Of a stretch of DNA of 64,000 nt, positions 929 to 18,050 are shown one piece after another (the first letter of the stretch is position 1; each line of letters starts with the position of its first letter). The notes beneath the pieces were generated by a model. It was not told the DNA's origin and did not search any database. It saw only the letters and a list, made by a program, of their open reading frames with translations. The DNA lies in the NCBI GenBank assembly GCA_016190665.1, contig JACPQD010000068.1, positions 1-64,000 on the forward strand, given 5' to 3'. The DNA comes from Chloroflexota bacterium. Lineage in GTDB: Bacteria; Chloroflexota; Dehalococcoidia; JACPQD01. The position numbers and the translations under genes were made by a program.

Positions 929-2094
929 AGGTCTGTTTCATTACCGGCGAGTATCCCCCCATGCGAGGCGGCGTGGCCGATTACACGGAGACGCTGGCCC
1001 GTGCGCTCCACGACTTCGGTGCATTGCCTTGCGTCGTCACTTCGACCCGGGCGGCGCCAAAGGCGCCGTCCTCAATCCCCCTCTATCCGGCCGTCGATAA
1101 CTGGGGTTTTGGCGCTTGGGGCCGCGTCGAAAGGCTGGCCCTGGAGACGAAGGCGGATATTGTTCACCTCCAGTATCAAACGGCCGCCTATGGGATGCAT
1201 CCTGCCATCAACTTCTTGCCCTGGTGGCTGCATCGCCGGCTGAACTGCCGCGTTGTCAGCACCCTCCACGATTTGAGGGAACCGTATCTCTTCCCCAAGG
1301 CGGGGAGGCTACGCTCGTGGGTCAATGCCCGGCTCGTTGCTGATAGTGACGCCGCCATCGTCACCAATGGTGAGGACCTGGCGGAAGCGAGGCGACTGGC
1401 CGCCCGCGCCCGTCTCATCCTCATACCCATCGCCAGCAGCATCCCGGTGTCTTTGCCGCCTGCCTTCGACCGCGACCTCGTAAGGTCGCGTTTGGGCGTA
1501 AACGCTGGAGAATGCCTGCTTACCTACTTCGGGATATTGAATCAAAGCAAGGGGGTGGAGTTCCTGCTGGCCGCGCTCCGCGAAGTGGCCGACCGCGGAC
1601 AGCGCGTCAAACTGTTGATGTTGGGTGAGGAGATCGGCGACGCCGACCCCACGAACCGGGCGTACCGAGAGAAGGTCCTGACAATGATAGAAGACTTGAA
1701 GCTCGAGGAGATGGTGGTCCGGACGGGGTATGTGGCCGCCGACGCGGTGTCGGCTCACCTTCGCGCATCGGATGTCTGCGTGCTGCCCTTCGCGGATGGA
1801 GCTTCCTTTCGCCGCACATCGTTGTTAACGGCCCTGGAACACGGCCTGCCCGTGGTGACGACGTCGGGCGCCCCTGGCGGCCAGTCCCAGCTTGTCAGCG
1901 GCGAGAACTGCCTGCTGGCGCCACCCGGGGACGCCGAGACGCTGGCCAACGCCATCGGCGAGCTGATAAGCTCGCCAGCTTTGCGGGACCGTTTGGGGCG
2001 TGGCGCGGCCACGCTGGCGAAGGAGTTCTCCTGGGAAAGGATCGCCGAACAACACATGCAACTCTACCGGGCGTTGATGTCACGGGCGACGTGA
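925..2094 (+). CDS. Glycosyltransferase family 4
   Basis: MKVCFITGEYPPMRGGVADYTETLARAL start; GT4 C-terminal LPFADGASFRRTSLLTALEHGLPVVTT; ATG at 925 more plausible than the called 895. Confidence 0.88.
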   Translation: MKVCFITGEYPPMRGGVADYTETLARALHDFGALPCVVTSTRAAPKAPSSIPLYPAVDNWGFGAWGRVERLALETKADIVHLQYQTAAYGMHPAINFLPWWLHRRLNCRVVSTLHDLREPYLFPKAGRLRSWVNARLVADSDAAIVTNGEDLAEARRLAARARLILIPIASSIPVSLPPAFDRDLVRSRLGVNAGECLLTYFGILNQSKGVEFLLAALREVADRGQRVKLLMLGEEIGDADPTNRAYREKVLTMIEDLKLEEMVVRTGYVAADAVSAHLRASDVCVLPFADGASFRRTSLLTALEHGLPVVTTSGAPGGQSQLVSGENCLLAPPGDAETLANAIGELISSPALRDRLGRGAATLAKEFSWERIAEQHMQLYRALMSRAT

Positions 2095-2100
2095 ATGCAG

Positions 2101-2200
2101 ACACCCCAGAGACACCGAGAGCCCAGAGCTGGAAACACGCCTCGCCAACAGTTCCCGAGAGGACTCGGCGGACTCTGCGCCTCTGCGGTGAAAGGGGGGG
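2101..2200. repeat. CAGAGACACCGAGAG...CTCTGCGCCTCTGCGGTG word-type repeat
   Basis: Shares cgagaggac...ggactct-cgcctctgcggtg-aaag with 58780-58816. Confidence 0.7.
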
Positions 2201-2217
2201 GCCACGCAGCCTCAAAC

Positions 2218-4929
2218 ATGAGCGCCGGAACAGCGCGCGGCGTGGTGGCGCTGGCGTGCCTCCTTGCTTTCCTCTTGCGAGTCCTGCACGCCAGCGACCA
2301 GGGGATCTGGGGCGACGAGATCTTCAGTATCTGGTATTCCGGCATGAGCCTGCCAGACATAATAAGGCTGAATCTGGCCAACCTGGACGCGCACGCTCCC
2401 CTTTTTTATTACGTCCTCAAGTTCTGGACCATGGTGGCGGGCCAGAATGAGTTGGTCTTCCGCTTCCCTTCGGCCTTTTTCGGCGTGCTCGCCATCCCGC
2501 TAATCTATCTTCTGGGAAAGCATCTGGCAGACCAAAATACGGGAATAATAGCCAGCGTCATGATGGCGACGAATCCGTTCCAGGTCTGGTACGGCCAGGA
2601 GGCCAGAACCTACGCGCTAACGACGTTACTCACCCTTCTCTCGGTCTTGCTATTCTGCCGCCTGCTTCAGCAGAAGGGGCCCTTGTGGCTTTGGGCCGGC
2701 TATTGCCTCGTGACGTTGCTCAGTATCTCCTCTCACTACTACGCCTTCTTCATCCTCGCCGTCGAAGACCTCTGGTTGCTGCTACTGCTGAGCCGGGGTA
2801 AGCTGGAGTGGCGGCCGTGGGCTATCGCCCATGCTGTCCTTCTGGCGCCTCTTCTGGCAGGCTTGTGGCAAGTGGGTTACATGATGCTGCGCTATCGGGC
2901 GGAGCATCTGCCTCTAAACCCTCTGGGCACTGTTAGAGATTATCTGGTCCAGTACACCGTCGGTTGGTTTGTCGACCCTGTTTTCGGGGAGTGGGCCCTG
3001 GCGGCATTTGTCGCCTTCGCCGCGGTTGGCCTTTTGTGGCTATTCCGGGCGCGGAAGACCTGGTTGGGGCTCTTCCTTTCGTTCTACTTGCTCGTACCCA
3101 TCTCTGGCGCCCTGGCGTACTTCTGGACCACGTCCGGCTTCCCTCCCCGCGAGCGGTATCTCGTCATCGTCACACCTGCGCTCTACCTCCTCGTCGCGGC
3201 CGGAGTGGCAGCGTCGAGGCGGCTTTCGCCCCTGGTTATGGGCCTCGCGATTCTGGTTGCGCTATCGCCTCAGGCATACGCCTTGGGGAATTACTACGGG
3301 CAGAGCCGTTACGCCCGACCTGACTACCGAGCCGTGGCGCGCCATATCCAGTCATGGGAAGATAAGGGCGACGCCATAGTGGCCATAGGCCACCTCACCG
3401 CGGACGTCTTTCGCTATTACTACAAAGGAAGCGCGCCCATCACCCAGTTTCGCTATTACCCAGGTGAGAACAGTCGAGAGGAGATCCAGCGCAAGCTTCA
3501 CAGGCTGGCGCAAGAGAACAAACGGATCTGGCTGCTTCCTTCCGGCGACGGCCGCGACGACCCCGATGCTGAGGAGTGGCTCAATGACAACGCCTATGAA
3601 GTGGAGAACCATTGGCTGGCGCGAGCTAGGCTGGCCCTCTATGCGACAGGCCCGCTACCAAGCGAACAGCCATTGAATTCCGCGGCCAGACTGGAGACCA
3701 AGCTGGAACTGGCCAGCTACCGTATGTCATCCGGGCAAGCAATGTCGGGCGACATCCTGAGGCTGGCACTGAACTGGCGCCCCCTGGAAGACCTCGGTCA
3801 GCGCTACAAGGTCTCGGTCCGCCTGCGAGATGACCGGGGACATATCTTGCGGCAAGCTGACCGCTCATTGGGGGGCGCTCTGCGGAGCAACTTTCCCAAA
3901 GGTAGCGAGGTCATGGATAGAGTCGGTCTCCGAGTGCCTAACGGAATGATGCCCGGCGCCCTCTCAGTCGAGGTTGCCATCTACAGGGACAGTGATGGAC
4001 GTAGCCTGAGCTTCCTGGACGCCAACGGTGCGCCCAGCGGGACATGGCTGAGCTTAGGTCGGCTGCAAGTCGTGAAGGGGCCAGCCCCGGCGTCACTGGA
4101 CAGATTCGAGATACCCCAAGCAGCGAGCTACGATGTCAACGGCGACTGGCGCCTGGTGGGCTTCGGGCTGGGCCGGGACACACTCATGCCGGGAGAGAGG
4201 CTGACAGTCTCCCTGTTCTGGCAAGCGCTCACCAAAGCCCCAGACAACATAAAAGCGACCATCAAGCTGATCGACCAACAAGGCGCCGTGGCAGGGGAAT
4301 CCCCTGTGCCGACAGAGCGCCAAGCGGTCCTTGGCTGGACAGAAGGCGATGTCTTCAGGGAACTCATAGACCTATCTATACCAGCAAACGCGACCGGCGG
4401 TAGGTATGTGGTGAGTCTGGCGCCAGGACTTGGAAGTGAGCTATCACTGGGCCAAGTCGCCGTCAAGGCCAGGGAGCGGCGTTTCGATATGTCGGCGGTG
4501 CAGCAATCCTCCAGCGCTGCCTTCGGCGCCCTCGCCCGGCTGCGCGGTTCGGATCTGTCCCGTGAAGGGTCTGAACCCAAGAAGGGAGCACTGGAGACGA
4601 GACCAGGGGATAAACTCACTTTGGTCCTGTACTGGGAGGCTCTGGGGGCTAGCGCCGAGAGCTATACAGTGTTCACCCATCTTCTCGATGGGGGCGGGCG
4701 AATGTGGGGCCAGCACGACGGGATTCCAGCTTTGGGTACAGCGCCCACCCCCGGGTGGGTCACCGGAGAGATCGTCGCCGACCGCCACGACATTGTAGTG
4801 AAAGAAGACGCGCCAGCGGGGGAATATGTTATCGAGGTGGGCCTTTACGACCCCGGTACGGGCAGGCGCCTGAGGACGGAAGGTGGCGAGGACAGGGTGA
4901 TTGTGGGCAAAGCAGTAGTGAGGAAGTGA
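2218..4929 (+). CDS. GT39/ArnT-like integral membrane glycosyltransferase with large C-terminal soluble region
   Basis: GDEIFSIWYSG and multiple TM segments (dolichol-P-mannose mannosyltransferase-like); ATG at 2218 likely, since the upstream N-terminus is repeat-derived. Confidence 0.8.
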   Translation: MSAGTARGVVALACLLAFLLRVLHASDQGIWGDEIFSIWYSGMSLPDIIRLNLANLDAHAPLFYYVLKFWTMVAGQNELVFRFPSAFFGVLAIPLIYLLGKHLADQNTGIIASVMMATNPFQVWYGQEARTYALTTLLTLLSVLLFCRLLQQKGPLWLWAGYCLVTLLSISSHYYAFFILAVEDLWLLLLLSRGKLEWRPWAIAHAVLLAPLLAGLWQVGYMMLRYRAEHLPLNPLGTVRDYLVQYTVGWFVDPVFGEWALAAFVAFAAVGLLWLFRARKTWLGLFLSFYLLVPISGALAYFWTTSGFPPRERYLVIVTPALYLLVAAGVAASRRLSPLVMGLAILVALSPQAYALGNYYGQSRYARPDYRAVARHIQSWEDKGDAIVAIGHLTADVFRYYYKGSAPITQFRYYPGENSREEIQRKLHRLAQENKRIWLLPSGDGRDDPDAEEWLNDNAYEVENHWLARARLALYATGPLPSEQPLNSAARLETKLELASYRMSSGQAMSGDILRLALNWRPLEDLGQRYKVSVRLRDDRGHILRQADRSLGGALRSNFPKGSEVMDRVGLRVPNGMMPGALSVEVAIYRDSDGRSLSFLDANGAPSGTWLSLGRLQVVKGPAPASLDRFEIPQAASYDVNGDWRLVGFGLGRDTLMPGERLTVSLFWQALTKAPDNIKATIKLIDQQGAVAGESPVPTERQAVLGWTEGDVFRELIDLSIPANATGGRYVVSLAPGLGSELSLGQVAVKARERRFDMSAVQQSSSAAFGALARLRGSDLSREGSEPKKGALETRPGDKLTLVLYWEALGASAESYTVFTHLLDGGGRMWGQHDGIPALGTAPTPGWVTGEIVADRHDIVVKEDAPAGEYVIEVGLYDPGTGRRLRTEGGEDRVIVGKAVVRK

Positions 4930-5160
4930 CCGAAGGGGGATTGGCAAAGGCCCATCTTCATGGTAAGCTAGTCTCACATTGCAGCATTATATTGACAAGC
5001 GTTTTTGATCTTTGGCGCGTGAGGTCCCTCTGTGAAGTCATCAGAGTACGATTACTGACAAGAGTCCCGATCATGCGGCGCGTTAGTTTCTCACTGTAAA
5101 AGCCGTTATTGAATACTGGTGACTTGTGACGCCTGATTTGAACGGAACCTATTTGGACTG

Positions 5161-5304
5161 AACCACGGATGTCCCGACGCATCGGTATCCCGCACGGAGT
5201 CGGGAGACACCGATTCACACCGATTATCAAGGGTTCCATCTCGCGCCATCCTCAGGGATTGAGTCCAAATGATGTCCGTGTCTATCCGTGTCCATCCGTG
5301 GTTC
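5161..5304. repeat. AACCACGGATG...CATCCGTGGTTC word-type inverted repeat with nested CCCGAC hairpin
   Basis: aaccacggat[gtcccgacgcatcggtatcccgcacggagtcggga]gacaccgattcacaccgat...ccgtgtctatccgtgtccatccgtggttc. Confidence 0.8.
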
Positions 5305-5395
5305 TTAACGGTGTATGTGTCTCGCCTCACTATCCGAACCTATGGTTGTTAGGTGCTACTAGCACAGGCAACTGAAAACATGAATTGAGGGGTTT

Positions 5396-6868
5396 GTGGT
5401 GAGAGCCCAGTTAGTGAGTTTAAAGCGGCCGCCGGCCTGGGGAACTCCTCGCACCTGCGTAGCGATAGGGGCCAGCCTGGCGCTGGGGGCCGCCGGCGGC
5501 GTGCTCACGGCGGCGGTATCGCCTTTTGCTGGCTTCGCCGTCATCCTGGCGATGCTCCTCGTGGCAGCGGTGCTCATTAATACCCAGGTGGGCATTGTCA
5601 CTGTCATCACCATCGCCTACGTTTTGCCCTTCGCCGTGACGCCGGTGCCGGTGGGCGGCGTGAAGCTCACCTTCCTGGACGCCTCGCTTTCCCTGGTCCT
5701 GCTGGTCTGGATTCTCCGTCTTATGGCCAACCGCGAGGCGCGGCTAATGGCCACGCCCCTCGACAGATTTGTTCTCCTCTTTCTAGGCCTGGCATTGTTC
5801 TCCTTCGTGCTGGGCATGACCGGCGTGACTGGCGAGGCGGCGCGGTTCTTCATGAAGACCATCAACAGCATCCTTTTCTTCTTCACAATTATCAACTGCG
5901 TCCGGGACCGAAGGCAGTTAGAGGGGACTGTAAAGGCGCTCTTGTTGGGTGGAACTGTTGCCGCCCTGTTGGGCCTGGTCTTCTATTTCATGACTTCGGC
6001 GGCAACCGAGTCCGTGTTGCGATCCTTGCGGGTGCTGGGCTACCCGACTACCGGTATTCTACGCTACATCGCCGGAACGACTACCCTCCGGGCCATCGGC
6101 ACCAGCATCGACCCGAATATCCTGGGCGGCATGCTGATGGTGGTGATACCCCTGGGCGTGAGCCTGGTAATGAGCGGTTCATCCGCCTCCGGCCGACTGG
6201 ATCGCCGTCTCACGGGGCTCGCCGTGGGCGTTATGGTGTTATGCCTCGTGCTCACCTTCAGCCGGAGCGCGTGGGGAGGCGCTGCCGCGGGCGTTGCCTT
6301 CCTCGCCGCCTTCAGACACCGCAAGCTCTGGCTGCTACTGGCCATCTTCGCCATAGCTCTCCTGCTTCTTCCTCAGGGGCAGATGGTCCTGGGCAGGATC
6401 GAAGCGGGCTTGACGATGCAGGACCGTGCCTCCCAGATGAGGCTTGGAGAGTACAAGGATGCCCTCAGGCTCATTGCTATGTATCCGTGGTTTGGGGTGG
6501 GTTTTGGGGAGGCGCCCAGCGTCGATGTGTACGTGGCCGCTTCAAGCACGTACCTGATGATCGCTCAAGAGATGGGCCTGGCGGGACTCGCCGCGTTCCT
6601 GGCGACAATGATCGCCCTGTTCTGGCATGCCCTACGCGGGCTGAAACGGGCAGCGGATGAATCCTGGATCGTAGTCCAGGATGAAGGCCTCAAAAACATC
6701 CAGTTCGGCGCCCTGGCGGGAGTGGTGGCGGCTTTGACGGCGGGCCTTTTCGACCATTATTTTTTCAACCTCCGCTTCCCCCACGCGATGGCCGTCTTCT
6801 GGCTCCTGGTTGGCCTGACTCTGGTCGCCGGTCGGCTGGGAGGTGTCTCTTCGCCACAGACTTCATGA
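5396..6868 (+). CDS. O-antigen ligase family membrane protein
   Basis: Polytopic; conserved TFSRSAWGG...FGVGFGEAPS pattern of the Wzy_C family. Confidence 0.82.
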   Translation: MVRAQLVSLKRPPAWGTPRTCVAIGASLALGAAGGVLTAAVSPFAGFAVILAMLLVAAVLINTQVGIVTVITIAYVLPFAVTPVPVGGVKLTFLDASLSLVLLVWILRLMANREARLMATPLDRFVLLFLGLALFSFVLGMTGVTGEAARFFMKTINSILFFFTIINCVRDRRQLEGTVKALLLGGTVAALLGLVFYFMTSAATESVLRSLRVLGYPTTGILRYIAGTTTLRAIGTSIDPNILGGMLMVVIPLGVSLVMSGSSASGRLDRRLTGLAVGVMVLCLVLTFSRSAWGGAAAGVAFLAAFRHRKLWLLLAIFAIALLLLPQGQMVLGRIEAGLTMQDRASQMRLGEYKDALRLIAMYPWFGVGFGEAPSVDVYVAASSTYLMIAQEMGLAGLAAFLATMIALFWHALRGLKRAADESWIVVQDEGLKNIQFGALAGVVAALTAGLFDHYFFNLRFPHAMAVFWLLVGLTLVAGRLGGVSSPQTS

Positions 6869-6880
6869 TTGCGGAGTGAT

Positions 6881-7453
6881 ATGGACAATCTGGAGAGGTT
6901 GCGCGTACCCGTCATCGCGGCCCTGCTGGTGGTCTTTGTAGCCGGCCTGGCTATGCTGACGCTTCAGCGCGGCAGCGAAGGCCGCCAGATCGAGATCATC
7001 TTGCCCAGTCCCACGCCGAGGGTGGCCACTCAGCCCCGCGAGGTGAAAGTCTACGTCAGCGGCGCCGTGGCCAGGCCGGGTGTCTATTCCCTCAGAGAAG
7101 GGGACCGGATAGAAGACGCCGTCAAGGCGGCAGGGGGCGCGCAGCCGACAGCCAATCTTTCGCAGGTTAACCTGGCACGCCGCATCAAAGACGAGCTGCA
7201 AATTCACATTCCGCAGACTGGAGAGGCGCTGCCGGCCTCGGCGCCAGGTGGCCAATCGCAACTGATCAATATCAACACCGCTTCCAGAGAACAGCTCGAC
7301 ACCCTGTGGGGCATTGGCCCGACGCGAGCCAAGAACATTGTCGACTCCCGGAGCGAGAAGGGCCCCTTCAAGAAGATTGAGGAACTGGTAGAGAGGAAGC
7401 TGATTCCGCGCTCCACCTTCGACCGCATTAAGGACCTCATCACTGCGGACTGA
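6881..7453 (+). CDS. comEA: ComEA family DNA-binding protein (SLBB + helix-hairpin-helix)
   Basis: KVYVSGAVARPGVYSL...ININTASREQLDTLWGIGPTRAKNIVDSR. Confidence 0.92.
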   Translation: MDNLERLRVPVIAALLVVFVAGLAMLTLQRGSEGRQIEIILPSPTPRVATQPREVKVYVSGAVARPGVYSLREGDRIEDAVKAAGGAQPTANLSQVNLARRIKDELQIHIPQTGEALPASAPGGQSQLININTASREQLDTLWGIGPTRAKNIVDSRSEKGPFKKIEELVERKLIPRSTFDRIKDLITAD

Positions 7454-7466
7454 TCGGGACAGGCGC

Positions 7467-9890
7467 ATGAGGCTCATTTACTTGTCGGCCGCCCTCCTGG
7501 GCGGCGTCTACCTGGGCTCCTTAACAGCTCCGTCGCCGCCATTGATCCTGGTCACGGCGGCGGGAGCCCTTGCTGTAGCCCTCCTTCCTCACGACTGGCG
7601 CAAGAGCCTCCTCGTAATGCTATGCCTCGTTGCGCTCCTCCTCGGCATCTTCCGCTACCAGTCCACCAGATTTGTGGCGGATGAGAGCTCGATTTCCACC
7701 CATAATGGGCGTGATGCCGCCGAGGTCAAAGGCGTCGTCGCTGACGACCCGGAGATCAGAGACGCCGCCGTGAACTTGCGCCTGTCGGCTGCTGAGGGGA
7801 GATTCACCGATGGGTGGATGCCCGTCTCAGGCGTCATACTCGTCAGCGTCCGCCTTCTTCCGGTCTACCATTACGGCGATGTCCTCAAAGTTACTGGTGC
7901 GTTGGAGGCGCCACCAAAGTTTAGCGACTTCGATTACCGGGAATATCTGGCCCGCCAGGGCATCCGCTCCGTTATGCGTTACCCAAGGGTCCAGCTTCTC
8001 GAGAGCGGGCAAGGCTTCAAGCTGCTGGAATGGATTTATGGGCTGAGACGCTCGCTCGCGGATTCCCTCTCTGCCGCGCTTCCGGAGCCTCAGGCCGCCC
8101 TGGCGCAGGGTATAATCCTGGGAATCAGGGCCGGCATACCTGACGACTTGAACGAAGCCTTCTCCCGCTCCGGCACCATGCATATCATCGCCATCTCCGG
8201 CCAGAACATCAGCCTGATTGCCGGCCTCTTTCTGGTGTTCGCCGTCGCCCTCTTTGGGAGACACCGCCCATTCTACTTCATCTTTGTTTTGGCTATGGTT
8301 TGGCTCTACGCCCTTCTGACGGGCATGGCGCCGCCGGTGCAGCGCGCGGCGGTCATGGGCAGCCTCTGGCTCACCGCCGATTTCATAGGCCGACCGCGCA
8401 GCGCGGCGCCTGCGCTGGGCTTTGCAGCGGCGGCAATGGTGGGCATCAACCCGGACCTCCTCTGGGACGTATCCTTCCAGCTCAGTTTCGCTTCGATGGC
8501 GGGCCTGGCGGTAATCACGCCCGCGGTCCAGGAAGTCGTCGCGAAGTGGCAAGGCAACCCCGATGCAACTGAGGTCCGGGGCCCGCTCAGCGTGGTGGTC
8601 GACAGCCTGGCGGTCACCCTGGGCGCGACGCTGGCCACCCTGCCGATAATCGCTGTCGCCTTCCATCGCCTCCCGCTGGCAGTCCTGCCCTCCAACGTCG
8701 CGGCTTTGCCCGCGCTGCCCTTCATTATGGCCACCAGCGGCCTGGCATCGACAATGGGCGCCATCTTCCCGCCGCTGGGCGAGCTGGCTGGATGGGTCGC
8801 CTGGCCGTTCCTGACGTATCTCATGGTGGTGGCGACGTCCTTCTCGGCGCTTCCCATAGCATCGGCGGAAGTGGGCGGCGGAGCCCATTGGGGGTTCCTC
8901 TATTACTTGCTCCTCGGGGCGGCTCTCTGGGGGATACCGCAGTGGAGCGGGCTGAAGGCGAGCGCCTCCGGAAGTGGGGGAGCCGCCGCGCGGGCAATTA
9001 GAAGCGCGGGAAGCAGCGTCCGGAGATTGGGCGCCGCCCGGGTGGCCTTCGTGGCGCTGGCGGCAGCCTGTCTCGCCGTCTGGCTGGCCGTCGTTTTCGC
9101 CAGGGAGGACGGGCTTCGCGTCAGTTTCCTGGACGTCGGCCAGGGGGATGCCGCGCTCATTCAGACGCCCAGTGGCCGGAGAGTGTTGATCGATGGCGGC
9201 CCCAGCCCGCGGGCCATCGGCGCCCAGCTCGGCAAGAAGCTTCCTTTCTGGGACAACTCCATCGATCTGGTGGTGCTCACCCACCCGGACGACGACCACG
9301 CCAACGGTCTGACCGAGGTATTGCGGCGCTATCGGGTCCGTCAGGCGATGGACCCGGGCATTAAGCACGCCTCGCCGGTCTACCGTGAGTGGCAGCGACT
9401 CGTGAGAGACAAGAAGGTCGGCATCGTCATCGCCACCGCCGGCCAGCGAGTCGACCTGGGCGACGGTCTCACGATGGAGGTGGCCCATCCACAGGCGCAA
9501 TTGATCAGCACCGAGTCAGCGGACGCCAACAACAACTCCATCGTCTTGCGGCTGACCTCCGCGGACATGAGCTTCCTCTTCACCGGCGACCTCGAGGAAG
9601 AAGGCCAGAGGTATCTTTTGTCTAAAGCGAGCAACCTCGACAGCACAGTATTGAAGGTTCCGCATCACGGCGCCAAAAAGGGGCTCGCCCCCGAATTCCT
9701 GGAGGCGGTGAATCCGCAGATTGCCGTAATCTCCGTGGGCGCCGCCAACACCTTCGGCCATCCAGCGCGGGAGACCCTCGAGAAGCTGAACGCGAAGATT
9801 CCGGCGGATAGAGTCTACCTCACCGAGCGGCAGGGCACAGTTGACATAACGGTGAAAGAGGGAAGGGTGTGGGTGAAGACGGAGAGGTAG
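7467..9890 (+). CDS. comEC: ComEC/Rec2 DNA internalization protein
   Basis: IAISGQNISLIAG competence domain plus C-terminal metallo-beta-lactamase domain (FLDVGQGDAALIQTPSGRRVLIDGG, HPDDDHANG). Confidence 0.95.
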   Translation: MRLIYLSAALLGGVYLGSLTAPSPPLILVTAAGALAVALLPHDWRKSLLVMLCLVALLLGIFRYQSTRFVADESSISTHNGRDAAEVKGVVADDPEIRDAAVNLRLSAAEGRFTDGWMPVSGVILVSVRLLPVYHYGDVLKVTGALEAPPKFSDFDYREYLARQGIRSVMRYPRVQLLESGQGFKLLEWIYGLRRSLADSLSAALPEPQAALAQGIILGIRAGIPDDLNEAFSRSGTMHIIAISGQNISLIAGLFLVFAVALFGRHRPFYFIFVLAMVWLYALLTGMAPPVQRAAVMGSLWLTADFIGRPRSAAPALGFAAAAMVGINPDLLWDVSFQLSFASMAGLAVITPAVQEVVAKWQGNPDATEVRGPLSVVVDSLAVTLGATLATLPIIAVAFHRLPLAVLPSNVAALPALPFIMATSGLASTMGAIFPPLGELAGWVAWPFLTYLMVVATSFSALPIASAEVGGGAHWGFLYYLLLGAALWGIPQWSGLKASASGSGGAAARAIRSAGSSVRRLGAARVAFVALAAACLAVWLAVVFAREDGLRVSFLDVGQGDAALIQTPSGRRVLIDGGPSPRAIGAQLGKKLPFWDNSIDLVVLTHPDDDHANGLTEVLRRYRVRQAMDPGIKHASPVYREWQRLVRDKKVGIVIATAGQRVDLGDGLTMEVAHPQAQLISTESADANNNSIVLRLTSADMSFLFTGDLEEEGQRYLLSKASNLDSTVLKVPHHGAKKGLAPEFLEAVNPQIAVISVGAANTFGHPARETLEKLNAKIPADRVYLTERQGTVDITVKEGRVWVKTER

Positions 9891-9985
9891 CTCCACCCGG
9901 GAATGGACCACGAAATATACGAACGACACGAACAGGTCCTGGATTTCGCATGTTTGGTGTGGTTTGTAGTTAAGAGGAGCGTTTC

Positions 9986-11038
9986 ATGAAACCCGAGAAG
10001 AGTCAGCCAAACGAGCAGGAGCCCCGGGAAGGGGAGATTGTCCTCTACACCACACCCAGCGGCGTTGCCAGAGTGGAGGTCTCCTTTCAGGATGAAACCT
10101 TCTGGTTGACCCAGAAGCGGATGGCGGACCTCTTTGGCGTCGACGTACGCACGGTCAGTGAGCACCTTCAGAGCATCTTCCGAAGCGGCGAGCTAAACGA
10201 GCAAGCAGTTATCCGGAGAATCCGGATAACTGCCGCCGATGGGAAGGCATATCTCACCAGTTTCTACCATCTGGACGCCATCATTGCCGTTGGCTATCGC
10301 GTCAACAGCTATCAGGCCACGCAGTTCCGTATCTGGGCCACTAAGACGCTACGTGAGTTCATGATCAAGGGTTTCGTCCTGGATGACGAGCGGCTCAAAC
10401 AGGGCAAACGCTTCGGCAAGGACTATTTCGACGAACTCCTCGAACGCATACGCGAAATTCGCGCCAGCGAGCGGCGTTTCTATCTGAAGATCACCGACAT
10501 TTACGAACAGTGCAGCATCGACTACAACCACGACGCGGAAGTCACCCAGACCTTTTTCAAGACCGTACAGAACAAGCTCCACTGGGCAATCACCGGCCGA
10601 ACGGCGGCCCAGATTATCGCCGAGCGCGCCAACGCCTCCCAGCGGCACATGGGGTTGACCACATGGAAGAACGCGCCCCGTGGCAAGATTATGAAATCGG
10701 ACGTAGGCATCGCCAAGAACTACCTGGATGAAGACGAAATCAAAGGGCTGGAGCGCATCGTCTCCATGTTTCTCGACTATGCGGAGAACCAGGCCGCCCG
10801 ACACATCACCATGCGCATGGAGGGCTGGGTCAAAAAGCTGGACGCTTTCCTCCAGTTCAACGAATACGACATACTGAAGGACGCCGGCGCCGTTTCCCAC
10901 GAAGTGGCCAAGCGTCTGGCCGACGAGCAATATGAAAGGTTCCGGGTCGTACAGGACCATGACTATGAAAGCGATTTCGAGAGGGATGTCAAAAAGATCA
11001 CTCCCCCCAAAAAGCGTCGCGAGAAAGAGAGCAAGTGA
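9986..11038 (+). CDS. RhuM family protein
   Basis: GEIVLYTTPSGVARVEVSFQDETFWLTQKRMADLFGVDVRTVSEHL ... WATKTLREFMIKGFVLDDERLKQG. Confidence 0.9.
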   Translation: MKPEKSQPNEQEPREGEIVLYTTPSGVARVEVSFQDETFWLTQKRMADLFGVDVRTVSEHLQSIFRSGELNEQAVIRRIRITAADGKAYLTSFYHLDAIIAVGYRVNSYQATQFRIWATKTLREFMIKGFVLDDERLKQGKRFGKDYFDELLERIREIRASERRFYLKITDIYEQCSIDYNHDAEVTQTFFKTVQNKLHWAITGRTAAQIIAERANASQRHMGLTTWKNAPRGKIMKSDVGIAKNYLDEDEIKGLERIVSMFLDYAENQAARHITMRMEGWVKKLDAFLQFNEYDILKDAGAVSHEVAKRLADEQYERFRVVQDHDYESDFERDVKKITPPKKRREKESK

Positions 11039-11112
11039 AGCTGCAATTCGACTCCGAGCAGCAGTTCCAGGTTGACGCCGTTTCCGCTATTACCGAATTG
11101 TGCGATCGACAG
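11035..11112 (+). pseudogene. 5' remnant of type III restriction enzyme Res subunit
   Basis: MKLQFDSEQQFQVDAVSAITELCDRQ matches the characteristic N-terminus of type III Res proteins; GTG overlaps the rhuM stop as GTGA; reading then runs into comEC-like sequence. Confidence 0.7.
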
Positions 11113-11303
11113 CGGAGGCCGTCAGCCCGCAGATCGCCGTCATGTCCGTGGGCGCCACCAACACCCTCGGCCACGCGGCGCGGGAGACGCTGGCCAAGCT
11201 GGGCGCCCGGCCCGGCGCGGACCGGGTCTACCTCACCGAGAAGCAGGGGACTATTGACATAACTGTGAAGGACGGGAGAGTGAGGGTGAGGACGGAGAGA
11301 TGA
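11100..11303 (+). pseudogene. Duplicated/divergent 3' fragment of comEC
   Basis: AVSPQIAVMSVGATNTLGHAARETLAKLGARPGADRVYLTEKQGTIDITVKDGRVRVRTER aligns to the ComEC C-terminus AVNPQIAVISVGAANTFGHPARETLEKLNAKIPADRVYLTERQGTVDITVKEGRVWVKTER. Confidence 0.88.
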
Positions 11304-11415
11304 GTGGGGGAAGCGATGCCGGTACGGTGAAGCGGAGACGGACTGGACTTTGGGGATCGCCATCGCCCTGCCAACGTTTCCACCTTCGGGCGGTTCCCGC
11401 CGCGTTTGGACTAGC

Positions 11416-11444
11416 TTTACATAAACCCTAGACTGTGTTATGCT
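11416..11444 (+). promoter_or_regulatory. Predicted sigma70-type promoter TTTACA-N17-TATGCT
   Basis: Hexamers at 11416-11421 and 11439-11444, upstream of the 11536 gene. Confidence 0.6.
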
Positions 11445-11535
11445 ACAGAAAGCGACCGGGAGCTCGATCGTGGAGCACCGTCGAACCGCTTCCGGCCCCG
11501 CTTTGACTCCAGAATTCACCTGGAAGGAGACTCAA

Positions 11536-12276
11536 GTGCCACTCACTCCCAAACCGGAGCTAACCGTCGACAAGTTTCTAGCCGATGCCGTCGAAGCGTA
11601 CCTGTTCAACGACCTTGAGAGCATGGCGGCTCTCGACCGTCACCCCGGTGCCTGTGGTTACCCAATGCTCTTGGCTACGCTAGCTGGCATGGAACTACTC
11701 GGCGGACTCCTCAGCTCAGACGAATTCTGCAGCAAGCGCGGTGCTAGCAAACGCCTTGAAAGTTATTGGGAACACTACTTTGCAGATGGAACCCTCTACG
11801 CCGGGCTTTCGTGTATCATGATCAAGCTGGCGAGGAATGGACTTGCCCACAGCTCGCTTGTGAAGCTGGGAATAAAGGTCGCGAAGCATTCAGATGACCA
11901 CCTCGTCGTAGACGACGAAGACCCCCGAAACCCCCAACTGATCATCGACCCCATCCAGCTCTTCAGAGATTTCAAGGATTCTTACGTGCGGAGAATAAAG
12001 CCAATCCTTGTTGGCGGTGATAGCGAAACGAAACGCAAGATGCAGGGGAACCTCAACAACATGATTCGTATCTACGCTGCCGAACGGGATGGCCTGTTTT
12101 CAGAAACTAAGGTTTGCCTAGCCAACTTGCGGCGGCAACCGCCCGACGATGTCCGTCGGGCAACTGAAAGTACCGTCATCGCCAGGCACGTCGCAAGTGT
12201 TTCACCATACGTTTCGACCTCCGGCGGGAGTGTCACGCCTTTTGGCACTTCTGGCAGGCCGACATCCCACACGTAA
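11536..12276 (+). CDS. Uncharacterised protein with HEPN-like RNGLAH motif
   Basis: GTG at 11536 preceded by GGAAGGAG; the called start at 11440 lies in the -10 box. Contains KLARNGLAHSSLVKLGI (Rx4H). Confidence 0.6.
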   Translation: MPLTPKPELTVDKFLADAVEAYLFNDLESMAALDRHPGACGYPMLLATLAGMELLGGLLSSDEFCSKRGASKRLESYWEHYFADGTLYAGLSCIMIKLARNGLAHSSLVKLGIKVAKHSDDHLVVDDEDPRNPQLIIDPIQLFRDFKDSYVRRIKPILVGGDSETKRKMQGNLNNMIRIYAAERDGLFSETKVCLANLRRQPPDDVRRATESTVIARHVASVSPYVSTSGGSVTPFGTSGRPTSHT

Positions 12277-12531
12277 GGAGCAGTCGAAGCCTATCTCACC
12301 CGCCCCGTCAAGGGATCGCTTCGCTCGGCGCTTGCCCTAACACGCGGCCTCGGCTGACTCTGAGGCCGGTCTGGACTCGTCGAACAGCATGAACGCGCGG
12401 ACGGCCATTTGAGTATCCTCCGAGGCTATTGGTAGTAGTGTTGGTTCGACATGCTGTCTAGTGACAATTTGGTGCCTTCCCGTCATTGTCTTGGTACAAT
12501 CCAGTAGAACGAAGTAATCGCTCCGGGAATA

Positions 12532-13494
12532 ATGGCTAACGCGGGAGTCAAACCGATGAATGCGAATCACGTTCCACCAACTGCAGAAGTTGATCGTGAC
12601 GTTCAAAAGCTGTACGAAAAGGGGCACGAAGCTTTTGCCGCCTCTGCACTAAGATCGGCCGAAGCATCGTACAAAAAAGTGCTCGAACTCCTGAAGGAGG
12701 ACGAGAAAGGCCAACAAGAGAGAATTCACAAAGGTGCCCCCTACCACTACCTAGGGCTGACGTACCTTCTTGGGTATAAGAAGCCAGCCGAGGCGCTGGA
12801 ATACTTTATCAAGGCGTATATAGAAGATGTGCTGAGTCAAAAGGAGGGGACAGAGGACGCCGCTGACGCCGGGCCGGCCGCGACTATTCTCAAAAACGAG
12901 TTCCAGCTAGACAGCAAATTCCAAGACGAACTTAAATGGGCTGCAAGGCAGTGCAAAGCCGAAGGTGCCAAAATCTGGGACTCCTCAACTCTCCTGAGTC
13001 TTGTTAAAGACTTCCCGAAGGATGCCGCTTCTCTTCTCAGACACAAGCACGCGCAGGAGCCCGAGATGAAGTCGTCCGTGGACGACCCGCCGGGATCTTG
13101 GGAGAAAAGAGTGTTCATCGGGGGCGACTATCTTCGACATTCGCGACTTGTGGACATTAAGCAAGTGGTTTTGGAAGAGGACTTTGCGCCCATCGTTGCA
13201 AAGGAATTCGCCATCCCTGAGGGACTGACTAGGCACCATACGCTCCTTCTGCTGCATTATTGTCGACTAGCCATATTTGAAGTAACTACGAACGCGGGTC
13301 AGTTGACAGAAATCGAGAGACTCTCTGACTACGAGGTGATACCTTTGTTTCTCTATGATGGGGAATCACATCCCCAAATCTCGAAGATGGTAATCTCCCA
13401 TCACCTGTTTGAGAAACGCAGCAGGGGTTATCGAGATACTGGAGAACTCCAACAGGCTGTCAGGGATTTCTTGCGAGACCATGCCGGGTCGTGA
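12532..13494 (+). CDS. TPR-like N-terminus + TIR/nucleoside-deoxyribosyltransferase-like C-terminal domain
   Basis: N-term YEKGHEAFAASALRSAEASYKKVLELL...YHYLGLTYLLGYKKPAEALEYFIKAY; C-term RVFIGGDYLRH...LLHYCRLAIFEVTTNAGQLTEIERLSDYEVIPLFLYDG. Confidence 0.55.
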   Translation: MANAGVKPMNANHVPPTAEVDRDVQKLYEKGHEAFAASALRSAEASYKKVLELLKEDEKGQQERIHKGAPYHYLGLTYLLGYKKPAEALEYFIKAYIEDVLSQKEGTEDAADAGPAATILKNEFQLDSKFQDELKWAARQCKAEGAKIWDSSTLLSLVKDFPKDAASLLRHKHAQEPEMKSSVDDPPGSWEKRVFIGGDYLRHSRLVDIKQVVLEEDFAPIVAKEFAIPEGLTRHHTLLLLHYCRLAIFEVTTNAGQLTEIERLSDYEVIPLFLYDGESHPQISKMVISHHLFEKRSRGYRDTGELQQAVRDFLRDHAGS

Positions 13495-13665
13495 TCGCAA
13501 ACGCAGATTCATTGGCAAGCGAAGACACGCTCCTGCTAAATGCGCGCATGACCCCTGTGAGACAGAGGGGCAGCGTCCGCGAAACCGAGAGTCCGATGAA
13601 TGGCGCGTGTGGGGAGATGTTATACTAAGCTGAATGACGAGAGTAACTGAGCAAGGAGTCTCCTG

Positions 13666-14385
13666 TTGAAACGGTTTGATGGTCGTTCCAACGATGAACT
13701 GAGGCCGGTGAAGATAACGCCGGGATACTTGAGCTTTCCGGTGGGGTCGGCGTTGATCGAGATGGGGCAGACGCGGGTGCTCTGCGCCGTGACCCTGGAG
13801 GACAGGGTGCCCGCCTTCCTGAAGGGGAGCGGGTCGGGGTGGGTGACGGCGGAGTACTCCATGCTGCCGGCGTCGACGGCCACGAGAACGCAGCGAGAGT
13901 CCATGGCGGGTCGCCCCAGCGGCCGCACCCAGGAGATCCAGCGGCTGATAGGTCGTTCGCTGCGCGCGGTAACGGACCTCTCGGCGCTGGGCGAAATGAG
14001 CCTGACTGTGGACTGCGACGCCCTCCAGGCCGACGGCGGTACGCGGACCGCCTCCATCACCGGCGCTTACGTGGCCCTGCATCACGCCTTGCGCACGCTG
14101 CTGGAGAAGGGAGCGATCCGCGCTTTTCCGCTGCGAACGGAGGTCGCCGCCACCAGCGTGGGCATCGTGGAGGGCGAGCTGCTCCTTGACCTCAACTACG
14201 ACGAGGACTGCACCGCCGAAGTCGACTTCAATGTGGTGATGACCGGCGAGGGGAAGTTTGTCGAGGTGCAGGGGACGGCGGAGCACAATCCCTTCACGCG
14301 CACGGATGTGGACTCCATCCTGGACCTGGCGGGAAGCGGCGTCAGGCAGCTTGTCGAAATGCAGCGGGTGGCCTGCGGGTTGTGA
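13666..14385 (+). CDS. rph: Ribonuclease PH
   Basis: RNase PH signature across the length (GSALIEMGQTRVLCAVTLEDRVP, TRTASITGAYVAL, EVQGTAEHNPF); TTG start. Confidence 0.95.
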   Translation: MKRFDGRSNDELRPVKITPGYLSFPVGSALIEMGQTRVLCAVTLEDRVPAFLKGSGSGWVTAEYSMLPASTATRTQRESMAGRPSGRTQEIQRLIGRSLRAVTDLSALGEMSLTVDCDALQADGGTRTASITGAYVALHHALRTLLEKGAIRAFPLRTEVAATSVGIVEGELLLDLNYDEDCTAEVDFNVVMTGEGKFVEVQGTAEHNPFTRTDVDSILDLAGSGVRQLVEMQRVACGL

Positions 14386-14388
14386 GGA

Positions 14389-14960
14389 AGCTCGAAGCAC
14401 GGAGCGGGAAGCGAGAATCTCCAAAGCAGGCGCCCCTTTCGCTGTCTTTCCGAGTTCTCCAAGCCGGTGCGCCAGCCCAATGCGTGGCAATGAACCGGGC
14501 TTGACTGAAAGCGCTGGAAGGCAGCAGGAGCCCTCATCCCTGTCTTTCCGAGCGCGCGGTTGAAATAGTGCCAATAAGGACAGACTTTCTCGCGCGAGGT
14601 CCCGACTTCTTCGGGATCCCGATGCGTCGGGAAATCCGGCACCCTTGGCCAGCATCTCCCGGTTCATTGAAAGCGGGCGGTCGAATCTGGTCTGCCCTCG
14701 ACAGGCTCCGTCCCGCGAGGTCCCGACGCATCCCGACGTAGTCGGGAAGGAATCTGGAAATCCGACGTTCCGTTGCTGCGGACTGATCGCCAATCGCTGA
14801 TCGCGGGCCGGTGTTACGTCGGCTGCAGGCGGACAGGGACGTCCGCCGCTACGGTCGCAACGTGCGCCGAAAATCCGTTTATCCGTTGCCTGTCTATTGA
14901 CGCCTTTTCCCAGCTTTCAGCTTGATCATTCATCATTCCGCATTCATCATTCATCATTCC
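14389..14960. repeat. Repeat-dense intergenic region (several families)
   Basis: GAAGC type (14389-14425), CCCGA hairpins (14600-14632, 14721-14747), GGCGGAC-GTCCGCC (14828-14847), ATTCATCATTC (14925-14960). Confidence 0.75.
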
Positions 14961-15068
14961 CATGTGACTCAGGAACTGGCACGCGAATGTAAACGTCTGT
15001 TATAATGTTTCGAGCGTCTGGCATGGCTTGAGGGCGTTGAATTCTGGCACGAAAACGGAGGACGTACG

Positions 15069-16610
15069 TTGGACAAGATCGAGGAGCTTCTGCAGAAGCG
15101 CGCGCATATCATGGGGATGGGCGGCCCCAAAGCTGTCGAGGCGATGCATAAGCGGGGCAGCCTGACTGCTCGCGAAAGGATAGACTACTTCTTCGATCCC
15201 GGCACTTTCACCGAAATAGGCATGTTCGTTAAGAACCGCACCACCGCCTTCGGTATGGACAAGCGTGACATCCCGGCGGAAGGGGTCATTACTGGCTATG
15301 GCAAGGTTAACGGTCGGACGGTGATGGTGGGCGCCGAGGACTATACGGCCATGGCGGGCACCTTCGGCGAGTACCACGGTAAGAAGTTCTCCGCGGCTAT
15401 CGACATGGCCAAGGACATGGGCATCCCTTTCGTTGGCATGAACGACTCCGGCGGCGCGCGTCTCCAGGAGGGCATGGATACGCTGGAGTGCTACGCCTGG
15501 CTCTTCCGATCGCAGATCCTGGCCTCGGGCATCATCCCGCAAATCGCGCTGCTCATGGGCCCGTGTCTCGGCGGTCAGGCCTACCATCCGGTGATGCAGG
15601 ATTTCGTCCTCCAGTGCCGCGATACCGGCTTCATGGGCATCGCTGGCCCCGCCTTCGTGAAGACGCAACTGGGTGAGGATATCACCCTGGAGCAACTCTG
15701 CGGTTGGCAGGCCCACGCCATCAAGTCCGGCCAGACCCATATCGTCGTCGGCGATGACAAGGACTGCCTCGGCACGACCAGGGAGCTTCTCGACTTCCTG
15801 CCTCAGAACAACAAGGGGAAACCGGCTCGCCTGCCGATCACCGACGACCCGGACCGAGCGGACCCGGAGTTAAATACCCTGGTCCCTGAGCAGTCTAATA
15901 TAGCCTTCGATATGCACGACGTTATCAAGCGCATCGTGGACAATGCCCACTTCCTGGAGATATTGAAGGACCACGCCCCGAACATAATCGTTGGTTTCGC
16001 CCGCTTCGCCGGCCGGTCGGCCGGCATCGTTGCCAGCCAGCCGTCGTGGATGGCGGGGGTCATCGATTGCGACGCCGCGGACAAGATAGCCAGGTTTGTC
16101 CGCTTCTGCGATCTGTTCAATATCCCCCTGATAAATCTTCACGATACTCCGGGCTTTTTGATCGGGTCGCGAGAGGACTGGAAAGGCATGCTGCGCCACG
16201 GCGCCAAGACGCTCTACGCCTACATCGATGCCACGGTGCCCAAGATAACGGTTATCCTGCGGAAGTCCTACGCCGGGGCTTACCTGGGCATGTGCTGCAA
16301 GGACACCGGCGCTGACGTGGTCGCCGCCTGGCCCATTGCTAAGGTCACCATCGTCGGCGCCGACACCGCCGCCAGCGTCATCTTCGCCCGCGAGATCGGC
16401 AGCGCCCCCAATCCGGAGGAGATGCGGGCGCAGCGCATGAAGGAATACTCCGACCTGTATGAGAACCCTTACAAAGGCGCGGAGCGCGGCTACATCGACG
16501 ATGTCATCGTCCCCGCCGATACGCGGAAGTTCATCAACCGGTCGCTGGATATGCTGGAGAACAAGACCGTGGTGAGGCCCTTCAGGAAATACTCGAATAT
16601 CAACTTGTAG
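15069..16610 (+). CDS. Acyl-CoA carboxylase beta (carboxyltransferase) subunit
   Basis: PCCB/MMDA-type: GMNDSGGARLQEGMDTL, IPLINLHDTPGFLIG, CCKDTGADVVAAWP; TTG start with GGAGG. Confidence 0.92.
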   Translation: MDKIEELLQKRAHIMGMGGPKAVEAMHKRGSLTARERIDYFFDPGTFTEIGMFVKNRTTAFGMDKRDIPAEGVITGYGKVNGRTVMVGAEDYTAMAGTFGEYHGKKFSAAIDMAKDMGIPFVGMNDSGGARLQEGMDTLECYAWLFRSQILASGIIPQIALLMGPCLGGQAYHPVMQDFVLQCRDTGFMGIAGPAFVKTQLGEDITLEQLCGWQAHAIKSGQTHIVVGDDKDCLGTTRELLDFLPQNNKGKPARLPITDDPDRADPELNTLVPEQSNIAFDMHDVIKRIVDNAHFLEILKDHAPNIIVGFARFAGRSAGIVASQPSWMAGVIDCDAADKIARFVRFCDLFNIPLINLHDTPGFLIGSREDWKGMLRHGAKTLYAYIDATVPKITVILRKSYAGAYLGMCCKDTGADVVAAWPIAKVTIVGADTAASVIFAREIGSAPNPEEMRAQRMKEYSDLYENPYKGAERGYIDDVIVPADTRKFINRSLDMLENKTVVRPFRKYSNINL

Positions 16611-16641
16611 CAGTTGCGCAGGGGCGCACTTGGACCGACTC

Positions 16642-16686
16642 GGCCCCCCCTGAATCCCCCCGTGGACGGGGGGACTGAGGGGGGCC
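16642..16686. repeat. GGCCCCCCTGAATCCCCCC...GGGGGGACTGAGGGGGGCC palindrome
   Basis: Direct reading of inverted arms. Confidence 0.7.
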
Positions 16687-16775
16687 GGTCTGCAGGCCTG
16701 TTGCGCAAAGGGATACTCCAGTGCGATAATGAGGCGCCTCGATACGTCGGGGCGCTTCGGCTTTGGGAGAATGGA

Positions 16776-18050
16776 TTGTACATAAAGAAACGCAAGCTGG
16801 CAAGAGGGGTCGCCATTGTGGGCGCGGAAATGTCCAGGTTCGGCGCCTTTGACGATAGGATAACGCGCGACCTCTTCGTGGAAGCCTTCGGCGAGATGAG
16901 GAAAGCTGTGGACAAGGGTTTCGACCCGAGGGATATCGAGGCGGTCTACTTCGGCAACGCGGCCAACGAGCAGTTCGAGTTCCAGGGCCATCTGGCGCCC
17001 ATCCTGGCTGACTGGGTGGGCCTGGTGCCGCGGGCGATCACGCGCATCGAGGCCGCCTGCGCCAGCAGCGGCGTGGCCGTGAGGCAGGGGGTCCTGTCGG
17101 TGGCTTCCGGCGTCAACGATGTCGTGCTGGTGGCCGGCGTGGAAAAGATGACCGGCCTCTCCGCCGAGCTCACCACCTCGGTCATTTCCCTGGGCTGCGA
17201 TCAGGTTTATGAGGGCAAGGCGGGCTTCACCTTCCCCGGCCTCTATGCCGCCATGGCCACGGCCCACATGCATCGGCACGGCACGAGCGCCAGGCAGCTC
17301 ATGAGCGTGGCGCTGAAGAACCACCGAAACGGCGCCCTCAATGCCAAGGCGCAGTTCAACGCCACCATCGCGGACCTGATGGCGCGGCGGATAGCCCGTT
17401 GCCGGGAGAGGGGCGAGCCCGCGCCAGGCTGGAAAGCCGAGTGGGACTTTCTCGAGGATGCCGAAGCCAATCCGGTGGTTGCCTGGCCCCTGCGCTTGTT
17501 CGACTGCTCGCCGGTGAGCGATGGCGCGGCCTGCCTTCTGCTTGCGTCGGAGGACATCGCCAGGCAGTTCACCGATAACCCGGTGTATATCATCGGAACA
17601 GGGCAGGCCAGCGATCACGCGCTGCACGAGAGACCGGACATGACTGCCATCATGGCGGCGCGGCGCGCCGCCAGCGAAGCTTACGATATGGCCGGCGTCC
17701 GGCCGCAGGATATCAAGATAGCCGAGGTCCACGACTGCTTCACCATCGCGGAGATCGTGGCGACAGAGGACCTGGGTTTCTTTGCGCCCGGCGCGGGAGG
17801 CAGAGCGGCGGAGGAAGGGCTCACGGCCCGGGACGGGCCGAAGCCCATCAACACCTCCGGGGGATTGAAGGCTAAGGGGCATCCGGTTGGCGCTTCGGGC
17901 GCCGCCCAGATGGTCGAAATCTGGCGCCAGATGAGGGGAGAGGCGGGACCCCGGCAGGTGGCGGGCCGCGACATCGACCTGGCGCTGACCCACAATGTCG
18001 GGGCCACGGGCGGCACCTGCGTGGTCCATATTTTCGAGCGGCGGCAATGA
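16776..18050 (+). CDS. Thiolase family protein (SCP-x/acetyl-CoA acetyltransferase-like)
   Basis: RIEAACASSGVAVRQG, NTSGGLKAKGHPVGASGAAQ; TTG at 16776 behind GGGAG. Confidence 0.88.
   Translation: MYIKKRKLARGVAIVGAEMSRFGAFDDRITRDLFVEAFGEMRKAVDKGFDPRDIEAVYFGNAANEQFEFQGHLAPILADWVGLVPRAITRIEAACASSGVAVRQGVLSVASGVNDVVLVAGVEKMTGLSAELTTSVISLGCDQVYEGKAGFTFPGLYAAMATAHMHRHGTSARQLMSVALKNHRNGALNAKAQFNATIADLMARRIARCRERGEPAPGWKAEWDFLEDAEANPVVAWPLRLFDCSPVSDGAACLLLASEDIARQFTDNPVYIIGTGQASDHALHERPDMTAIMAARRAASEAYDMAGVRPQDIKIAEVHDCFTIAEIVATEDLGFFAPGAGGRAAEEGLTARDGPKPINTSGGLKAKGHPVGASGAAQMVEIWRQMRGEAGPRQVAGRDIDLALTHNVGATGGTCVVHIFERRQ

Follow-up and report, generated by a model that had tools for sequence, protein, structure and literature searches.

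General features of the locus

The stretch of DNA analysed here (the window, 64,000 nt) carries three genes between comEC and rph: rhuM, P0001 and P0002. The features referred to in the following paragraphs are:

9986..11038 (+): rhuM, intact; PADLOC candidate PDC-S05 (Pfam PF13310, E 3.2e-110; PADLOC, E 5e-153)
11114..11303 (+): duplicate (remnant) of the comEC 3' end, marking a recombination junction (78% identity over 188 nt)
11416..11444 (+): promoter-like TTTACA-N17-TATGCT (consensus scan)
11522..11529 (+): Shine-Dalgarno sequence GGAAGGAG, 6 nt before the P0001 GTG at 11536 (from the sequence)
11536..12276 (+): P0001, 246 aa, with RNGLAH (Rx4H) motif, candidate HEPN-like RNase (ORF, GTG start with Shine-Dalgarno, one relative)
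11833..11850 (+): codons of the P0001 Rx4H motif, R100-N-G-L-A-H105 (RNGLAH identical in the relative at L011)
12532..13494 (+): P0002, 320 aa, predicted helical TPR-like N-terminus and NDT/TIR-like Rossmann domain (ORF, relatives, model, Foldseek)
12595..12960 (+): P0002 helical region, residues 22-143, TPR-like (YHYLGLTYLL...AEALEYFIKA; DSSP of the model)
13099..13491 (+): P0002 NDT/TIR-like alternating beta/alpha domain, residues 190-320 (model E193-197 ... H303-318, Foldseek, alignment)
13279..13281 (+): P0002 E250 codon, acidic residue closing the third strand (D or E in all six sequences)
13309..13311 (+): P0002 E260 codon, candidate catalytic glutamate (invariant in 6/6, aligned to the TIR/NDT-like Glu)

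The end of comEC is separated from rph by ~10-610 nt in six relatives compared with 3.8 kb here, and the GC content across this interval is 0.51-0.55 against ~0.60 for the window. Since comEC and rph are adjacent in the six relatives and the GC content is lower, rhuM-P0001-P0002 is an acquired 3.8-kb cassette, perhaps gained in more than one step. The genome carrying it comprises 5.0 Mb in 107 contigs and is of Chloroflexota type, judging by relatives of the same phylum and class that bear the title Chloroflexi. No RNA families or tRNAs were found.

The rhuM gene is an intact ORF of 350 aa, and a toxin function in multi-level defence loci has been suggested for RhuM (PMC3710099). Copies of the comEC 3' end lie at 9701-9887 and 11114-11303 with rhuM between them, a footprint of insertion or recombination at the end of comEC. 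The initial annotation had described the sequence upstream of P0001 as a "type III R-M/RhuM fossil". We have rejected its interpretation as an R-M remnant: RhuM is intact, the remainder is the duplicated comEC tail, and no R-M genes or remnants were recognised upstream of P0001.

Gene P0001

The gene containing KLARNGLAHSS is present as an ORF with a GTG start and the Shine-Dalgarno sequence previously assigned to it, and the promoter-like site is present too, sites of the TTTACA-N17-TATGCT type occurring at chance frequency (two found, 1.9 expected in shuffled sequence; no enrichment). The GTG at 11536 was preferred to the ATG at 11440 because the relative begins at approximately the equivalent of residue 9. 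Conservation in this relative (L011, positions 4243-4977; 42% identity over residues 10-191, E 8.6e-19, alignment A4) leads us to regard P0001 as a real gene. Within the class, 2 of 393 genomes have a member of the family, the genome of the window counted in, so that the family evidence consists of two sequences. Phages yielded no P0001 relatives, and a single plasmid match, with an E value of 4, looks like chance.

The proposal that P0001 is a HEPN protein stands as a suggestion at the level of its motif. HEPN RNases follow an Rx4-6H rule which includes an N after the R (PMC3710099), and RNGLAH, with its polar residue after R, obeys it in both sequences and lies in a block where their alignment is among the best conserved. 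When P0001 is shuffled, the loose form of the motif, Rx4-6H, turns up in 78% of the sequences and the stricter RNx2-4H in 3.6%; L011 retains the motif. The profile and structural parts of the proposal fared less well: no Pfam family, HEPN families included, matched P0001 at E 10; there was no match in NCBIfam, PADLOC or PHROGs; and a profile search against PDB sequences returned no HEPN and nothing useful. The structure predicted from the single sequence has a pLDDT of 38, too low to be used for recognizing a HEPN helical bundle. A HEPN-type RNase is thus a plausible assignment for P0001, judged by its motif.

The relative lies 21 nt upstream of a gene for an REase-NACHT-receiver protein. This 862-aa protein (L011, 1633-4221, minus strand) has an unusual architecture, with a restriction-endonuclease-like N-terminus (assigned by eye), a NACHT/STAND middle part matching PADLOC Avs2 (E 1e-28) and a response-regulator receiver domain. 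The pairing offers another starting point for work on STAND-type defence. It also raises the possibility that P0001 is some helical protein other than a HEPN RNase, for example an adaptor or regulator partner of a STAND NTPase, orphaned here without its NACHT gene. In keeping with this are the position of the sole relative, the lack of a HEPN family match, and the window itself, which holds no NACHT gene of that kind and in which no NACHT remnant was found behind P0001. On the other hand RNGLAH conforms to the HEPN rule, N after R included (PMC3710099), and falls within one of the best conserved blocks, and we consider the orphaned adaptor somewhat unlikely.

Gene P0002

The 320-aa ORF with VFIGGDY...AIFEVTTNAGQLTEIE exists at 12532-13494 as the initial annotation had claimed. 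No significant family match was obtained in Pfam, NCBIfam, PADLOC or PHROGs. P0002 is nevertheless taken to be a real gene because it is conserved in five relatives, with 28-45% best-segment identity, so that six sequences in all make up the family evidence. Relatives which include the N-terminal part come from Chloroflexi (L006, L010) and Curtissbacteria (L007). In two archaea the NDT/TIR-like domain occurs without the TPR-like part, at 9992-10336 of L008 (Methanophagales) and 9869-10489 of L009 (Nitrososphaeraceae). The family is sparse, being found in 3 of 400 Chloroflexota genomes (that of the window counted in) and, in the Curtissbacteria phylum, in 1 of 305. Viral contigs contained no relatives (queries P0002, A1, A2 and A4), and plasmids no credible relatives of P0001, P0002 or their relatives, in part at E values up to 10.

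The AlphaFold model of P0002, based upon a four-sequence alignment (mean pLDDT 68.8, pTM 0.47), has helices over residues 22-143 followed by strands at 193-197, 219-222, 246-251, 268-274 and 298-300 alternating with helices. The helices agree with the TPR-like N-terminus claimed earlier; the one TPR hit (TPR_1, E 0.063) scored 13.6 bits against a cut-off of 27.8 and is sub-threshold, and the pLDDT is below 50 for residues 1-35. A TPR-like helical N-terminus is plausible from this hit and the model. In the alignment of relatives this part has invariant R64, HKG66-68 and ED98-99.

The C-terminus of the model has a five-stranded alternating beta/alpha (flavodoxin-like) arrangement, a resemblance at the level of fold only. 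For this domain alone, Foldseek against the PDB gave as best whole-domain matches the nucleoside deoxyribosyltransferase (NDT) 2a0k, RCL/DNPH1 and several TIR domains (probability 0.9-1.0, TM by target 0.45-0.62, no E value below 0.001), and against a viral library phage NDTs and a CAP12/Pycsar-type TIR (all E >0.001). The sequence methods were less productive: the PF05014 model (Nuc_deoxyrib_tr) did not match P0002 even at E 10, neither did the TIR_2 and TIR family models, and the P0002 profile found nothing useful in the PDB. Alignment by hhalign with Chloroflexota TIR/NDT-like domains is weak (P 0.03-0.04) and in register; of the column-shuffled controls, 2/100 for NDT and 0/100 for TIR reached the score of P0002. 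The NDT/TIR-like nature of the C-terminus, as put forward in the initial annotation, is supported at fold level by AlphaFold and Foldseek, and not by significant E values.

Invariant in all six C-terminal sequences are RVF, GG, Y, C244, AIF, G256 and E260, and position 250 is acidic throughout (D or E); E260 and D/E250 are kept across Chloroflexota, Curtissbacteria and the two archaea. When the domains are aligned jointly, E260 coincides with the catalytic Glu and E250 with the NDT-type acid, and E260, like that Glu, belongs to the helix that follows strand 3. F195 corresponds to Tyr in a true NDT (L016) and to Phe in TIRs. The active-site Tyr of PF05014, which bonds the Glu and which we take to be the strand-1 Tyr of NDTs (NDT Tyr7), is absent from the P0002 family, Phe occupying the aligned place in 6/6. 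An active-site Tyr that hydrogen-bonds the Glu has been linked to deoxy-substrates, and Phe or Ala in its place to NADases (PMC11204291). Because of the Phe at the Tyr place we lean, by that rule, towards NAD+ or another ribo-substrate for P0002.

Gene neighbourhoods of P0002 relatives

The relative in L006 shares a likely defence island (1378-17416) with a type IIG R-M enzyme, a HEAT-like protein of 1354 aa and several proteins of no known function. In L007 (Curtissbacteria, 2293-6397) an apparent operon encodes a GHKL-type ATPase, the TPR-NDT protein and a DUF5677 protein, the genes for the latter two overlapping by 4 nt; neither the ATPase nor the DUF5677 protein matched PADLOC. ATPases of the GHKL paraMORC type are known to occur near R-M genes. 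Near the L010 relative there is an HTH-like ORF (by eye), and no obvious defence genes are located near the bare-domain copies of L008 and L009. The genome of the window has seven TIR_2 matches (contigs C39, C99, C90, C91, C43, C89 and C22), the highest number in a comparison of 31 genomes.

These neighbourhoods bear on whether P0002 could be an enzyme of nucleotide metabolism or signalling with no defence role, i.e. an NDT/DNPH1-like salvage or sanitising hydrolase whose N-terminus serves as a scaffold. NDT and DNPH1 are among its nearest solved folds and the archaeal copies stand away from obvious defence genes, as such a function would have it; against it, the patchy spread (3/400 and 1/305 genomes) and the location in an accessory cassette are ill-suited to housekeeping, and relatives adjoin R-M and GHKL ATPase genes. 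We regard a P0002 with no part in defence as unlikely. Given that relatives adjoin defence-type genes and that the stretch is an acquired cassette, a defence role for P0001 and for P0002, each separately, is reasonable.

Relationship between P0001 and P0002

The two genes are on the same strand with a gap of 255 nt. An operon is possible; the spacing does not point to one. The genome of L011, the other carrier of P0001, has no P0002 relative, and P0001 relatives are likewise missing from the five further genomes in which P0002 occurs, giving a co-occurrence of 0/6 other genomes. The initial annotation had joined the genes in one defence module and had named homologues that never co-occur as evidence to the contrary; this is what was found in the genomes checked. 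A two-gene system is unlikely, and we do not put it more firmly because six genomes are few.

In its explicit form such a system would be an abortive-infection module in which P0002 acts as the sensor, as the producer of a nucleotide signal, or as both, and P0001 is the RNase effector. The genes are adjacent, on one strand and in the same low-GC cassette, and both kinds of domain have separately been linked to defence before. Against it, the partner is absent both nearby and genome-wide in five P0002 genomes and one P0001 genome (that of the window excluded), the P0001 relative is tightly paired with an REase-NACHT gene instead, and the gap between the genes measures 255 nt. We consider this module quite improbable.

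The most likely reading, to which we give an even chance, is that P0001 and P0002 are two unrelated rare accessory genes in an acquired cassette, P0002 being a self-contained sensor-effector and P0001 a separate protein, likely a HEPN-type RNase. The following scheme is inferred as regards the activity of the enzyme and its substrate, the sensing step, the role in defence and the HEPN identity of P0001. The helical TPR-like N-terminus of P0002 would recognise a signal and restrain the C-terminal domain. Once released, the NDT/TIR-like domain would cut an N-glycosidic bond by means of E260 (with E250), in NAD+ or in a nucleoside or nucleotide, and cleavage would stop the infected cell. P0001 would act by itself, most likely as a HEPN-type RNase, or else be a component of a NACHT-linked system left without its partner.

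P0002 appears to define a sparse subfamily which four family libraries miss and whose members come from Chloroflexota, Curtissbacteria and two lineages of archaea. The alignment places a TIR-type Phe and an NDT-type acid together in one predicted active site, a combination that could reveal how enzymes of a shared fold diverged into those cleaving NAD+ and those cleaving deoxynucleosides. More speculatively, and in our estimation rather doubtful, the "RVF(I/V)GGxY ... AIF(D/E)x(T/S)...GxxxE" domain may be a new intermediate branch between NDT and TIR found in bacteria and archaea which, with a TPR-like front, would constitute a one-gene infection sensor with its own substrate.

Comparison with known systems

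P0001 resembles the HEPN superfamily (Rx4-6H RNases) in RNGLAH with N after R, and differs in having no family match, no confident structure and a single relative. Avs2-type STAND and REase-NACHT proteins are represented by the neighbour of its relative in L011, whereas the window has no gene of such kind.

With the NDT/DNPH1 proteins (PF05014 superfamily) P0002 shares the C-terminal fold (2a0k, 2klh, 8rps and phage NDTs), the small-residue loop after strand 1, and the acid after strand 3 with a Glu 10 residues on (11 in the NDT-like L017). Unlike them it gives no sequence match, has F195 at the place of the NDT Tyr and carries an extra N-terminal helical domain. As for TIR domains (ThsB, CAP12/Pycsar, bacterial TIR_2), the fold matches ThsB 8btn (Thoeris), PdTIR 3h16 and BtTir 7uxr, strand 1 is VFI with its Phe, and the Glu is in the helix after strand 3; in contrast, TIR models do not detect P0002, E/D250 stands where the aligned TIR domains have a hydrophobic residue before Ser, and GG replaces the S-Y/H loop.

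NDT domains behind Abi-type N-termini have been proposed as abortive-infection toxins (Anantharaman et al. 2013, PMC3710099). P0002 is like these Abi-NTD + NDT fusions in having a helical, sensor-like N-terminus followed by an NDT-like domain, and unlike them in that its N-terminus looks TPR-like. A helical Abi-type N-terminus joined to an NDT toxin is thus known (PMC3710099); the P0002 subfamily and its predicted mixed active site are new.
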